64,000 nucleotides of DNA from the NCBI RefSeq assembly GCF_037392515.1, contig NC_090291.1, forward strand, positions 38,959,001 to 39,023,000, in the 5' to 3' direction. Positions 8,866 through 54,094 of the stretch are shown one piece after another. Within the stretch, counting starts at the first letter, position 1. Every line of letters starts with the position of its first letter. The notes under the pieces are model-generated. The model ran no database searches. It was not told the origin of the DNA and worked only from the letters and a program-made list of their open reading frames with translations. The translations under genes and the position numbers were made by a program. The stretch is from Haliotis asinina. Lineage: Eukaryota > Mollusca > Gastropoda > Lepetellida > Haliotidae.

Positions 8866-9725
8866 AACTAGGACTAGAGACACTGACAAACAAATCGAAA
8901 TATTTCAAATCACACAATTTAGAAACAGCCTATGAATAATAACCTACCTTTGAGCATTGTCTGTGTTAATCAAAACTCTGTTTCATCATGTACTATATTA
9001 TCAATGCCACAGTTTTCAAATCAATCATTATGAATATTTTTTTACACTGGCGATATTTTCGACTAAGGATAGCTAACCCTATTTGTAGACCTAAAACTGA
9101 CGTGGCAATTTTCATAATATCAGCCGAGTACAAATACAGAGAGAAAACCGTTTAGGAAACATGTTCCTAACGTAACACCACTGAGTTCTGTTTTCATGTC
9201 TCGACCTAAAACTTTTTCCAGGTGACTGCATTATTGATAAACGCCATATTGAGCTTAAGGTAAAATTGGGGAATATTAAGCCGCCTACTAAAACATCGAC
9301 CTAGCAATAGACGGACCTGTCTTCGAATCGGAAACACGTCAAAGTCCGACTATAAAATAACAAACCTGACTTAAATGTGTTCATGTGTGGTTGTGTAATA
9401 TCAGGACGGGTTATATACCTAGATATAACCTCTAATGACCAACGTAAAGATATTTCCGCGTGTTTATATACCCATTGCATTGCCTGCGAATGTTCAAATG
9501 AACATCTTGTACTAGGATCAAAAGGAATAATCGGAGAATAAAGATGAATAATTGATAACGTGTTTCAGTTAACAAAACATAGATAGTTATGATTATGTTC
9601 CGAAAATATTGCCAAACATAGACTGTATGCTTTGAGTAACAAACATTCAACTCTGTGCATATCCACCCGTCATCCATGCAAGAGCTGATTTTCACCCAAC
9701 CTAAGCTTGTCGTAAGAGGCTGGTA

Positions 9726-10440
9726 GAATGTGTCAGGATAAAACAGTGGTAGAATGTGTGAACGCAGACCAGTTAGAATGTGTGAGCATAGACCAGTGGT
9801 AGAATGTGTGAGCATACAACAGTCCTAGAATTTGTGAGCATAGACCAGTGGCAGAATTAGTGAGCATACAACAGTGGTAGAATGTGTGAGCATAGATCAG
9901 TGGTAGAATGTGTGAGTATACAACAGTGGTAGAATGTGTGAGTATACAACAGTGGTAGAATGTGTGAGTATACAACAGTGGTAGAATGTGTGAGTATACA
10001 ACAGTGGTAGAATGTGTGAGCATAGAACAGTGGTAGAATGAGTGAGCATAGATCAGTGGTAGAATTAGTGAGCATAGATCAGTGGTAGAATTAGTGAGCA
10101 TACAACAGTGGTAGAATATTTGTGAGTATAGACCGGTAGTAGAATGTGTGAGCATAGGCCAGTGGTAGGATGTGTCAGCATAGACCAGTGGTAGAATGTG
10201 TGAGCATAGACCAGTGGTAGAATGTGTGAGCACAGACCAGTGGTAGAATGCGTGAGCATAGATCAGTGGTAGAATCAGTGAGCATACAGCAGTGGTAGAA
10301 TGTGTGAGCATACAGCAGTGGTAGAATGTGTGAGCATAGACCAGTGGTGTGATGTGTGAGTATAGATCAGTGGTAGAATGTGTGAGTATAGATCTGTGGC
10401 AGAGTGTGTGAGCATATACTAGTGGTAGAATATGTTTGCA
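9726..10440. repeat. Minisatellite, 26-bp unit, about 26 copies
   Basis: The unit is CAGTGGTAGAATGTGTGAGC plus ATAGAC or a variant such as ATACAA. Because 26 is not a multiple of 3 and the unit holds no stop on the minus strand in any phase, long minus-strand frames of up to 256 codons appear in several registers. These are by-products. The left edge abuts CTTGTCGTAAGAGGC, a scrap of family A. Variant units are clustered, as expected from local turnover. Confidence 0.9.
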
Positions 10441-13801: not shown

Positions 13802-14500
13802 TCAGTAGCGTGTGTGGCCTCCTCGAGCGTTGACAACAGCATCGTCTGTACATAGAGTGGATGAAACGGTTGATGAAGGTCATAGGAACTTGCGCTCAGA
13901 CACAGTGGTACGCCTGAGAGAGTTCAGCTGCAGTTGTCGGCCTTGGTCGCACATCACTGAGCCTCCTCTGAATCTCGCCTACAAGAGGTCTGTCGGCCGA
14001 GGGCAGGCCACTGAAGAATTTGTATGTCTCTAGTTGCCCTGGCAGTAAGGACACGCACGTTGTCCTGCTGGTAGACACGACGAAGGGTCTCAACGCTTCA
14101 TCAATGTAGCGGGCAGATATTACACTGTTTCTTACTCTACCAGGACCAATATTATGGAACACCATAGGGCCTAGTTTGTGATTGAGAGCAATCAATAACA
14201 CCCCACATCATTATTCTCGGACCTCCCTACGAATCTTTCATGGACAGATCATCAGCAAAACGCTCCCCGCGTCGTCGCCACACTATCACTCTGCCATCAC
14301 CCTTCGAGAAGACTACAGTTCGCCAATTCCGTTGGCGCCAGTTCCGATGGTGTGGCCCACTGGAGACGACGATGTCGAACAGTGAGAATCGGACTCAGAC
14401 AAGGCTTGCGACATCTGACGATGTCTCAAACGTGATGACAATCTGGCGATTTTTGCCGGTTGATAATCGTGGCATGTCCCCGTCGTGACTGTCAAAAGGT
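13802..14500 (-). mobile_element. Decayed Tc1-type transposon remnant
   Basis: In minus-strand sense the remnant starts with a MPRLS-like N-terminus (about 14475). It continues with KGDGRVIVWRRRGERF, YIDEALRPFVV and RPTTAAELSQA, and ends ARGGHTRY and a stop at 13802. The C-terminus and the flanking AAAGTCAGTAGCGTGT match the intact copy at 15.7 kb, so both belong to one lineage. The frame is broken several times, the DNA-binding domain is largely deleted, and I could not find terminal repeats. Confidence 0.75.
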
Positions 14501-15330: not shown

Positions 15331-15512
15331 AGTCGGATAGCCTGTCTCACAGTCTCTGAACCACGTCATTTTCCCACAGTCTAGCCCTCTCTGCAGTGCT
15401 AAGGCTCTGAATAAAGCAAGTCTACATGTTAGCAGGTTCAGGATCTCTGATCTCCCTAGGGCTCCTTTTTCAATTAAAATGGGTTTATTTGTTTCTATCA
15501 AAATTATATATA

Positions 15513-17015
15513 CTGAACATCATTGAAAACGCACCACCCCTAAAATTGTGGATTTCTAAGAGCAGAAGTGAGCAATCTATGTAAATTTTACATATTTGTG
15601 TAGACCAATGTTTGATAAAGAAAAGAAGCAAAAAACAATCAAGCAAAACAGTGAAGATTTAATGCAGCTGACAATGAAATAAAGATGGGGTCAAAATGGA
15701 AAGTCAGTAGCGTGTATGACCCCCGTTAGCAGCAACACAAGCTGTGCAACGTCTCCTCATTGAACGGATAAGTCTCTGAATAAAGTCCTGAGGCACTGCA
15801 TTCCACTCTTGCTGCAAGGCATGGTCGAGTTCCCCAAGGTTGTTGATCTGCGGACGACGTGCGAGGCGTTGGCCGATGTAATCCCACAAGTGTTCGATGG
15901 GTGACAAATCTGGTGACAATGCAGGCCAATGAAGTAGAGGAATGTTGTTGTTAGCCAGATACTGTATCAAAACACGTGCAGTGTGGGCTCGTGCATTGTC
16001 ATGTTGAAATGTGTGCAGATCTTGATGCTGGTGAAAGAAGGGAACGACGTTGTTCTGAAGAATGTTGTCACGGTAGTAAACGGCATTCACTCTGCCACGA
16101 CAAACAATCAGAGCGGTTCTGTGGTGATAACTTATCCCTCCCCACACCATAATGCTGTCTCCACCCCACCGATCGGTTTGCACAACACAATCCTGATGAT
16201 AACGTTCACCCCGTCGACGCCATACCCGTAGACGCCCGTCAGCATTTCGCAAGTGAAAACGCGACTCGTCGGAGAACACCACATCATGCCAACGTCGCAA
16301 CAACCACACACGATGCTGTTCAGCCCATTGTCGGCGTTGCCTGTCAGTCAGGATGGGTCCAACGTAAGGGCGTCGACAACGTAACCCTGCCGCACGGAGA
16401 CGGCGTCGGACGGTGGAAGCGCTGATCAAACCACGTCGACCTTGGACAGCGTTGGCGGTTCTGGCAGCGGGCAAGGTTCGATCCCGAATATGGCGCCGTA
16501 CAATGTCTCGATCTTGACGAGGGGTGGTAACACGTGCCTGACCTGGGCGTTGCCGGTCCCTGATGGTTCCTGTTTGTTGGTATCTGTTAGCAAGCCTCAG
16601 AATGGTCGAATGATGACACCCAAATCGTCGTGCAATGTTTCTGCTTGAAGCGCCGACCTGCAACATACCCAAGGCCTGTTCTCGTTCCTCTGGTGACAAT
16701 CTTGGCATGGCGAAAAAACTTTACTTACGAAAGTACTGCGAAAATGAGAACGGTTTTGTGCCGAAGGTCATTTATACCCCTGAACAGCATGCTTTCTGCA
16801 TGCAATTTGTGCCCTTCGTGTGTGATGTGCATGAATTTTGTTGTTTTCATGTGATGTGTTCGATGATGTGTTCGAACAATCCGTTTTTTACTGTAGAGCG
16901 TTATTTACGATCTAGTGTGTTATTATCAAAATTCCCACCATTAATTTTCCATTTCCAAAAGATTCTATTGCCTTATTTCAAAATTTACAGGTGGTGCGTT
17001 TTCAATGATGTTCAG
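15513..17015 (-). mobile_element. Tc1-type DNA transposon, apparently intact, about 1.5 kb
   Basis: Both ends carry the same 25-base inverted repeat: CTGAACATCATTGAAAACGC plus ACCAC at 15513-15537 and its complement at 16991-17015. Each end is flanked by TA, the target duplicated by Tc1/mariner elements, so the ends are defined to the base. Weak similarity (TAAAATTGTGGATTTC against GTAAATTTTGAAATAAGG) continues inside the repeats. One open 334-codon transposase gene fills the middle. Perfect terminal repeats and an open frame point to a recent insertion. The element lies between genes. Confidence 0.93.
15704..16708 (-). CDS. Tc1-family DD34E transposase, 334 residues, open
   Basis: This is the cut-and-paste transposase of the element. 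Residues 1-110 form the paired DNA-binding region: MPRLSPEERE, a first helix-turn-helix with SSRNIARRFGCHHSTILRL, a GRPR-like RPGQARVT linker, and a second one around SASTVRRRLRAAGL. The catalytic domain shows VVFSDESRFHL (first Asp), the MVWGGIS block, FQHDNARAHTA (second Asp) and SPDLSPIEHLWD (Glu). I count 34 residues between the second Asp and the Glu, the Tc1 spacing. The length is typical and no stop or frameshift is visible. The start is the ATG of MPRLS, shared with the decayed copy. No intron is evident. Confidence 0.95.
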   Translation of the reverse strand: MPRLSPEEREQALGMLQVGASSRNIARRFGCHHSTILRLANRYQQTGTIRDRQRPGQARVTTPRQDRDIVRRHIRDRTLPAARTANAVQGRRGLISASTVRRRLRAAGLRCRRPYVGPILTDRQRRQWAEQHRVWLLRRWHDVVFSDESRFHLRNADGRLRVWRRRGERYHQDCVVQTDRWGGDSIMVWGGISYHHRTALIVCRGRVNAVYYRDNILQNNVVPFFHQHQDLHTFQHDNARAHTARVLIQYLANNNIPLLHWPALSPDLSPIEHLWDYIGQRLARRPQINNLGELDHALQQEWNAVPQDFIQRLIRSMRRRCTACVAANGGHTRY

Positions 17016-17394
17016 TATATATTCAGAGACTAAGCCTTAGTCTAACTTGTGAACCCCTCTGATATGAGTAAACTGAAAGCGATGATTACTCAATGCCTTT
17101 TAGAAAGTGGTCAAATGTCAGATGCAACTTGATTATTTTTAAGAGAATTACCATACAATGTTCAGTGTTTTCACACAAGTAATAATCGTTTAAGGCCGGG
17201 GTCCCTTCCTCTTACATCAATATGCCACGCCCTGATACAACTGGGATTCTGTTCAATGTACCGTTAATCACTCACTCATCCCTTTGTCCACAGGATATAT
17301 CAACTGTGTGGACTAGACCGAACGACAGTAGACTGAAATCGAATTTGGAACTAGCCAAAACCTAATATAGTACGCCTTTTAGGCACAGCTAATC

Positions 17395-31424: not shown

Positions 31425-31665
31425 CGACCGCAACCATCGTCTACTTCACCCGTCCCGATTTTGTTTTTGAGACGACCCCCTCCACCCCACACCATCGTCT
31501 ACTTCACCCGTCCCGATTTTGTTTTTGAGACGACCCCCACCCCACCCCATCGTCTACTTCACCCGTCCCGATTTTGTTTTTGAGACGCCCCACCCCCCAC
31601 CCCATCGTCTACTTCACCCGTCCCGATTTTGTTTTTGAGACTCCGCCCCCCTCCCCCCCACCCCT
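31425..31665. repeat. Tandem array, four units of about 60 bp
   Basis: ATCGTCTACTTCACCCGTCC, then CGATTTTGTTTTTGAGAC, repeats four times with a C-rich spacer (CCCCCACCCCACCCC) of changing length. The units are nearly identical, so the array is young. Confidence 0.9.
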
Positions 31666-44689: not shown

Positions 44690-45440
44690 TCCCAAATGTC
44701 AGTTTGTATTGTATCTACACAGTATTGTATCTCATAATGCAACACAGTTTTGTATCACATACATCAACACAGTATTGTATCTCATACTTCAACACAGTAT
44801 TGTCTATACACAGTATTTCATCTGATACATCAACACAGTATTGTATCTCATAGGTCAAAACGGTATTGCACCTCATTCATCAACATGTATCTACACAGTA
44901 TTGCATCACATAGTGCAACACAGTATTGTATTGCATACATCAACACAGTATTGTATCTACACAGTATTGTATCTCATAGTGCAACACAGTATTGTATCTA
45001 CACAGTATTGTATCTCATAGTGCAACACAGTATTGTATTGCATACATCAACACAGTATTGTATCTACACAGTATTGTATCTCAGAGTGCAACACAGTATT
45101 GTATTGCATACATCAACACAGTATTGTATCTACACAGTATTGTATCTCATAGTGCAACACAGTATTGTATTGTATTGCATACATCAACACAGTATTGTAT
45201 CTACACAGTATTGTATCTCATAGTGCAACACAGTTTTGTATTGCATACATCAACACAGTATTGTATCTCATACTTCAACACATTATTGTCTATACACAGT
45301 ATTTCATCTGATACATCAACACAGTATTGTATCTACACAGTATTGTATCTCATAGGTCAACTCAGTATTGTATCTTCAAAGTATTGTCTCAAATGTCAAC
45401 AGAGTATTGTATCTACACAGTATTGTATCACCTATGTCAA
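44690..45440. repeat. Minisatellite with a 66-bp higher-order unit
   Basis: The basic word ACACAGTATTGTATC alternates with CTCATAGTGCA, TGCATACATCA and TACTTCA linkers. In the centre (about 44940-45250) a 66-base compound unit repeats. Plus-strand frames of 157 and 186 codons arise because 66 is divisible by 3. I do not call them genes. Confidence 0.9.
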
Positions 45441-45934
45441 CACGTTATCACATTACAAGGCTCACAAAACAATAATGCCTTGCTTTATAACTTCTGTATT
45501 ACAATGCATACAAATTATTTTAGGAGTTATTTTAGGACTGAAAAGAACTTAAGGTTCAGAGAAAATCTTCAAGAACCTGTGTATGCAGTTTTTCTAGTAT
45601 TTCCAGGTTGTCAAGAAACAGAGAAATCTGCCCAGTACCCTCAAGCTTATGTGTATCTTCCCTTCTGTGTGTCATGGCTGCTGTCTGAGACTTATAAACA
45701 GGTGATTGAGGGTTGTGATTCACATTACAAAATATCATTGGATACAACTTCATATTGTTCTACTGACTAATAGTATTGATATACATTTCACACAGATGCC
45801 ATGTATTGCCATACCTGTAGTCATGTAGAAGTGGCAGATGAGGAGGGTTTAACTGCTTGTATATGTATTTTAGTTATACCATGAAATGTCAGGCTTTCTG
45901 TTGGAGGGAGACAGACTGATGCAGGTCTTAAAGT

Positions 45935-52910: not shown

Positions 52911-52935
52911 TCTTGTGTAGTTGTAATACATAGGG

Positions 52936-53950
52936 GATACCCAACGACCTTCCATGGAATACACAGAGGACACCAAACGACCTTCCATGGAACACACAGA
53001 GGATACCAAACGACCTTCCATGGAACACACAGAGGATACCAAACGACCTTCCATGGAACACACAGAGGATGCCAAACGGCTTTCCATGGTATACATAGAG
53101 GATACCAAACGACTTTCCATGGAACACACAGAGGATACCCAACGGCTTTCCATGGTATACATAGAGGATACCAAACGACTTTCCGTGGAATACACAGAGG
53201 ATACCAAACGATTTTCCATGGAACACACAAAGGATACCAAACGACCTTCCATGGAACACACAGAGGATACCAAACGACCTTCCATGGAACACACAGAGGA
53301 TACCCAACGGCTTTCCATGGTATACATAGAGGATACCAAACGACTTTCCGTGGAATACACAGAGGATACCAAACGACCTTCCGTGGAATACACAGAGGAT
53401 ACCAAACGACTTTCCGTGGAATACACAGAGGATACCAAACGACTTTCAGTGGAATACACAGAGGATACCCAACGACTTTCCGTGGAATACACAGAGGATA
53501 CCAAACGACCTTCCATGGAACACACAGAGGATACCAAACAACTTTCCGTGGAATACACAGAGGATACCAAACGACTTTCCGTGGAATACACAGAGGATAC
53601 CAAACGACTTTCCGTGGAATACACAGAGGATACCAAACGACCTTCCATGGAACACACAGAGGATACCCAACGACTTTCCATGGAACACACAGAGGATACC
53701 AAACGACTTTCCGTGGAATACACAGAGGATACCTAACGACTTTCCATGGAATACACAGAGGATACCCAACGACTTTCCATGGAACACACAGAGGATACCA
53801 AACGACCTTCCATGGAACACTCAGAGGATACCCAACGACTTTCCATGGTATACATAGAGGATACCAAACGACTTTCCGTGGAATACATACAAGATACCAA
53901 ACGATTTCCCATGGAATACACGGAGGATACTAAACGACCTTCCGTGGAAT
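52936..53950. repeat. Minisatellite, strict 33-bp unit, about 31 copies
   Basis: The unit is GAGGATACCAAACGACCTTC plus CATGGAACACACA. Its centre TTCCATGGAA is a 10-base palindrome. Marker units with CATGGTATAC fall at 53085, 53151, 53316 and 53844, all multiples of 33 apart, so no indel has entered for about 1 kb. Variation sits at few positions (CCTT/CTTT, ATGG/GTGG, AACAC/AATAC). Long open frames exist on both strands (341 codons plus, 292 minus), a consequence of a unit divisible by 3 without stops. I do not call a gene. Confidence 0.92.
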
Positions 53951-54094
53951 ATCCTTTTTATGCTTCTCAAGAGCATCAGACCTTATAGAAACTCACAATG
54001 TATGGATTAATGTTAACGCCATGTCAGATGTACAAAATATCATTCTGTTTTATTGGGAAGATCGTTACCGACTACATTAAATTCTAGTATAGTT

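Follow-up and report, generated by a model that had tools for sequence, protein, structure and literature searches.

A Tc1-type transposon copy of Haliotis asinina, likely a passenger of a young family with a variable patch in its transposase

Does the Tc1-like element at this locus of the abalone Haliotis asinina still move by its own transposase, or is it an ordinary member of a larger family that is carried by others? The element lies in a window of 64,000 nucleotides (the whole stretch of DNA analyzed; NC_090291.1, positions 38,959,001 to 39,023,000). The repeat CTGAACATCATTGAAAACGCACCACC occurs twice in this window, at 15513-15538 (+) and 16990-17015 (-), both with 0 mismatches; nowhere else in the window was it found with up to three mismatches allowed, and 100 shuffles gave a mean of 0.00. 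A previous sequence-only reading had described perfect inverted repeats of 25 bp, TA on both sides, an open frame of 334 codons and a DDE triad at Tc1 spacing, and most of this anatomy held. The identical repeat measures 26 bp within the ends drawn there, or 33 bp with the outward extension ATATATA, TA is present at 15511-15512 and 17016-17017, and 34 residues separate the last two members of the triad. The frame exists as described, but falls short of the family's full length of 337 codons.

The transposase shows the organization of its class, with the Pfam domains HTH_38, HTH_Tnp_Tc3_2 and DDE_3 all exceeding the cut-offs; a single gene carries the bipartite HTH and the DDE part. Its top relative among solved structures is Sleeping Beauty (107.5 bits, residues 125-334), while Mos1 reached 39.4 bits; the predicted model (mean pLDDT 82.8) matches the folds of both. 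Several characteristics of the DD34E/Tc1 group were found, namely an HTH and DDE gene, the D-D-34-E motif, inverted repeats, a TA duplication (34/36 copies) and a length within the range of about 1.3-2.4 kb given in the available text of PMC7731502. Judged by its domains, triad spacing, ends and best matches, the element is a DD34E Tc1-type DNA transposon. The transposase would bind the short inverted repeats, excise the element and insert it at a TA, which would be duplicated; this cut-and-paste mechanism is known for the Tc1 family and is here read from the anatomy of the element.

Table 1 Features of the element and its older neighbor in the window.
Feature	Position	Strand	Remarks
Whole element, redrawn	15511..17017	-	1507 bp, TACTG...CAGTA; transposase on minus strand
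Terminal inverted repeat	15511..15538	+	28 bp, terminal TA counted in
Terminal inverted repeat	16990..17017	-	28 bp, terminal TA counted in
Putative TA target-site duplication, side one	15509..15510	.	From flank and empty-site comparisons
Putative TA target-site duplication, side two	17018..17019	.	From flank and empty-site comparisons
Transposase frame	15704..16708	-	334 codons + stop; HTH_38, HTH_Tnp_Tc3_2, DDE_3; D147, D237, E272
Junction of private 9-bp in-frame deletion	16337..16342	-	3 residues short vs 337-aa copies; linker ahead of catalytic domain
Hypervariable 6-bp patch	16157..16162	-	GGAGAC here, majority GGAGGC; codons 186-187 of 337-aa frame = residues 183-184 here
Remains of a decayed Tc1 transposase from a different, older lineage, outside the element	13805..14419	-	From protein comparison

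The sequence-only reading had proposed a genome search for further copies and a comparison of their identity, and this search revealed a large, near-identical family. In the assembly of 1.143 Gb (159 contigs), the 28-bp end consisting of TA and the repeat occurs 681 times exactly, and the 26-bp repeat with at most three mismatches marks 790 ends, equivalent to ~395 copies. In a DNA search with the window element, the best 40 of 482 candidates were all near full length with 96-100% identity, the window copy being among them. The gap between the two end counts corresponds to a divergence of ~0.53% per site, and its small size indicates that the ends of the family hardly include an older, diverged fraction.

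To avoid choosing copies by their likeness to the window copy, a positional sample of 37 copies was obtained by taking ends as they follow one another along C1 and C2, using a pattern that contains TA beside CTG/CAG at one end at least. The mean pairwise divergence within this sample (1.16%) is twice the mean distance to the majority sequence (0.59%), as in a star-shaped amplification. Coding and non-coding sites diverge equally (0.580% and 0.583% per site in the 37 copies), and the singleton changes are distributed as 99:43:5 between nonsynonymous, synonymous and stop, the expected shares being 69:25:6%; both observations argue for neutral decay following insertion. If each site changes at 1e-9 to 6e-9 per year, the burst would be 6 to 1 million years old, and 1.4 million years old at the zebrafish rate stated in the accessible part of PMC7913693. 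In 18/37 positionally sampled copies, the frame still runs for at least 330 codons from its usual start, so that open frames are common and the earlier expectation of a rare intact copy does not apply to this family. No stop was found in 114 of the best 120 protein matches among 27452 candidates, a sample biased towards good copies. Altogether, we consider it very likely that a recent star-like amplification gave rise to ~395 copies, which decay neutrally once inserted, with the window copy as a likely passenger.

An assembly or haplotig artefact is an extremely unlikely explanation of this burst. Two locus pairs (L032/L033 and L051/L052) are indeed duplicated together with their flanks, but the flanks of the other sampled copies are unrelated or merely diverged repeats, and the copies bear private mutations. 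Besides that, internally deleted copies with good ends were observed, namely L080 and L081 with lengths of 830 bp and 1173 bp and a copy of about 550 bp between paired ends at C1:71304217-71304772. Such copies are possible starting points of non-autonomous derivatives.

The large number of copies also allowed us to place the boundary of the element. In 34 of 36 positionally sampled copies (the flank counts leave out L048, whose left end was not recognized), the sequence across both junctions reads TATA/CTG...CAG/TATA. This pattern is best read as a TA beside CTG/CAG that would belong to the element itself, with the duplicated TA adjoining on the outside, which shifts the ends by 2 bp. Filled sites joined with one TA are typically 4 bp longer than paralogous empty repeats. 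The reading with an own TA plus a TA duplication was best or tied-best in 22/29 comparisons with empty sites (seven independent sites and one tie), where the empty sites are diverged paralogous repeats, 65-88% identical and in several cases from one repeat family. The remaining 7/29 comparisons, in which it was not best, concern L025, L028 (twice), L061/L037, L070, one of four for L074, and L079; L001-L008 were left out because they duplicate loci that are listed under other labels.

Under the conventional boundary, the TA next to CTG would be the target duplication and the element would strongly prefer TATATA targets, which we regard as distinctly unlikely. TA lies directly beside CTG/CAG in 74/74 two-ended copies, as this boundary predicts, though the pattern behind the positional sample itself holds that TA, and AT-rich palindromic targets are known for relatives of Tc1. 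The conventional reading was best in two and tied-best in one of the 29 comparisons, all three of them at L028. In most comparisons, however, the empty paralogues are shorter than it predicts, and three of four L074 paralogues offer a plain TA (CCATAG, GTTATAG) with no TATATA. Moreover, an extreme preference would be required, since only 102/5218 TA sites of the background fall in TATATA, compared with 34/36 at the insertions. A 4-bp duplication placed one base out often ties in the scores, but the flank identity that it needs is present in just 24/36 copies, and that for a 6-bp duplication in 3/36, as against 34/36 for TA two bases out. As evidence against the favored boundary, one TA instead of TATA stands between flank and CTG/CAG at one end in 7/74 two-ended copies at six sites (L023, L032/L033, L036, L039, L056 and L079), perhaps because the cut was imprecise or one TA unit was lost.

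Given these intact ends, the condition of the transposase becomes the main point for the mobility of the window copy. The distance from CTG to CAG is 1503 bp in this copy and 1512 bp in most siblings (1516 bp with their own terminal TAs), and the copy lacks nine bases in frame. As aligned, the deletion removes residues 124-126 of 337 and alters residue 127, in an arginine-rich stretch where the gap has more than one possible placement; R125 is Arg in 115/120 homologues, and in the predicted model the deletion falls where the linker helix preceding the catalytic domain begins. A 32-base pattern over the junction, searched with up to two mismatches in the whole assembly, matched the window copy alone and no sister. 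In addition, the changes S49I, G145D and N299H occur in 0/53 full-length siblings, while S250L is shared with one of the 53 and G187D is common. The description of this copy as intact thus does not stand, in view of the private 9-bp deletion and the three amino-acid changes absent from all 53 full-length copies.

The transposase of the window copy is probably weakened, as far as can be told from its residues, and movement by its own transposase appears doubtful, whereas mobilization in trans by other copies is plausible. The suspicion that the window copy is autonomous and currently mobile builds on its open frame, its three catalytic residues and its perfect ends as well as on a young family with many open frames, and losing three residues in frame would not necessarily inactivate the predicted protein. 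We nevertheless judge it very unlikely, because the private deletion hits a conserved linker stretch, the three changes were seen in none of the 53 full-length copies, and the deletion without a sister copy gives no sign that this copy has yet given rise to another. With intact ends but a shortened and altered transposase, the copy is a passenger more likely than a self-mover.

Several other members of the family suggest that broken copies are mobilized in trans by working ones. A 1-bp insertion causing a frameshift is common to L068 and L069, which lie only 21 kb apart, a 10-bp frameshift deletion to L049 and L070, and a premature stop at codon 168 to L057 and L060, where a recurrent C-to-T change could also account for it. 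In all three pairs, the flanks are unrelated. A shared disabling lesion combined with unrelated flanks would indicate that broken copies have been carried to new sites. Apart from these pairs, clusters of neighboring copies with one haplotype of the patch described below were observed at C2:10.64-10.73 Mb (four listed places) and at C4:36.17-36.41 Mb (five listed places). L068 and L069, which belong to the C2 cluster, occupy different insertion sites, and the pattern of this cluster looks like local hopping.

The variation within the family is unevenly distributed. Among 73 copies, in a table that leaves out the flank duplicates L033 and L052, nine variants are shared by at least three copies, and four of these fall in a stretch of ten bases (codons 186, 187 and 189). 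We counted this patch and its controls by pattern searches with six bases left free, using the first 100 places listed for each. The patch, GGAGGC in the majority, is non-majority in 50/100 places with 13 haplotypes (first 100 listed of 315), and in 41/91 after collapsing neighboring places of the same haplotype. A control patch over the second catalytic Asp varies in 1/100 (first 100 listed of 349), and the near-identical 6-mer GGAGGG located 21 bp downstream in 10/100 (first 100 listed of 322, counted by eye). Fisher's test of 41/91 versus 1/100 gives 4e-15, with copies taken as independent though they are related. Across the element, non-overlapping 6-mers vary on average in 2.6% of copies, according to a survey of about 70 copies that leaves out L033, L052 and L069, as does the linkage test below; L052 was left out of some further copy comparisons too.

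The patch variants comprise the silent GGGGGC and GGAGGA as well as amino-acid changes to R, E, A, S, D and F; patch variation was also seen in other copies, e.g. L048, L055, L059 and L063. D187 behaves as a subfamily in the sequence comparisons, with further shared variants nested within it. The same patch changes appear on G187 and D187 backgrounds, which implies either recurrent changes in the patch or shuffling. Six groups of patch variants showed no excess likeness elsewhere in the element, in a test that is blind to source copies differing at one site. In the linkage test, 33/57 pairs agreed versus 15.9 expected (0/1000 shuffles), a result that leans on L072/L073 and L065/L066, and this excess points to patch variants being inherited through transposition. 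A deletion breakpoint seemingly shared near the patch proved to be an alignment artefact of inserted columns.

Most likely, the patch is a local mutation hot spot, and the moderate excess at the downstream 6-mer fits this explanation. A G-rich hot spot as such is partly supported by that 6-mer, but against it, the remaining G- or C-rich stretches of the element show variation in 0-5 of about 70 copies, excepting windows that overlap the patch. Other candidates are selection on the hinge of the transposase and escape from nucleic-acid recognition. In the structure of Sleeping Beauty, the clamp loop pivots on three consecutive glycines, and this strip lies near the target TA; changes of the residue beside the glycine pivot were reported to be hyperactive (both from the portion of PMC4820933 available to us). 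The patch residues align with the second and third of these glycines in a residue match taken from the sequence alignment. Because silent variants are included, one may further propose that the patch changed many times in the burst, with the rest of the element 99.4% constant, as a target at the DNA or RNA level (e.g. of a host small RNA), whose change would be an escape of source copies, or as a site at which transposase activity is naturally tuned, and not as an ordinary hot spot. We hold this last proposal to be rather unlikely and keep the local hot spot as the favored explanation. In any case, the patch is the part of the family that deserves a second look.

The window contains decayed transposase pieces close to the element, as the sequence-only reading had noted; the decayed Tc1 itself is real, but its use as evidence for a long residence of the same lineage fails. 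Identity between these pieces and the window transposase is 34-69%, with stops and gaps, and in a comparison with 121 transposases the window's own ranks only sixth, five others matching better. These values rule out that the pieces are an aged member of the window family, and by protein comparison the neighbor is a different, older Tc1 lineage, which therefore tells nothing of the age of the window family. Further features of the window are tandem-repeat arrays at 9721-10435 (unit 26 bp), 31434-31641 (unit 55 bp), 44713-45443 (unit about 25-66 bp) and 52925-53951 (unit 33 bp).

Outside the assembly, a transposase from ENA and Logan sources (P0001) shares 333/337 residues with the family majority. 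This genome gave no 100% match to it among the best 119 of 28123 candidates, the top identity being 99%. P0001 carries Gln at position 239, and the genome shows 99 His, one Asp and no Gln among the first 100 listed of 349 places, so that P0001 may derive from another host or population. With regard to possible horizontal transfer, the next homologue is 74-75% identical, and a second named host was not found. Our literature searches returned no published description of this transposon family, which is not proof of its absence from print.

Taken alone, the window copy is of little weight, for it is an ordinary member, with slight damage, of a young transposon family. The family itself, in contrast, with its several hundred near-identical Tc1 copies and its many open frames, represents a good natural system for studying how a burst is silenced and how broken copies ride on working ones. 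The glycine patch, if confirmed, would constitute natural variation at a hinge of Tc1 transposases that structural work has singled out (PMC4820933, in the text available).

Among the known systems, the Mos1 mariner has its overall fold and cut-and-paste transposition at TA in common with the window element. Its sequence match to the window transposase is weak (39 bits), and Mos1 is of the DD34D type, unlike the DD34E of the window element. Sleeping Beauty of fish is closer, being of the same DD34E/Tc1 type with the same catalytic fold, although the identity is just 32% in the structural match. The glycine strip of the Tc1 subfamily is present in both, whereas Sleeping Beauty has repeats of ~230 bp with two binding sites each, compared with ~28 bp in the window element (strip and repeats of Sleeping Beauty according to the available sections of PMC4820933). 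ZB of zebrafish, also DD34E/Tc1, resembles the window family in its young, near-identical copies with mostly open frames: 20 full-length copies are above 99%, 19 of them intact, according to the accessible text of PMC7913693. The window family differs from ZB in its ~395 copies, of which about half of those sampled are broken.
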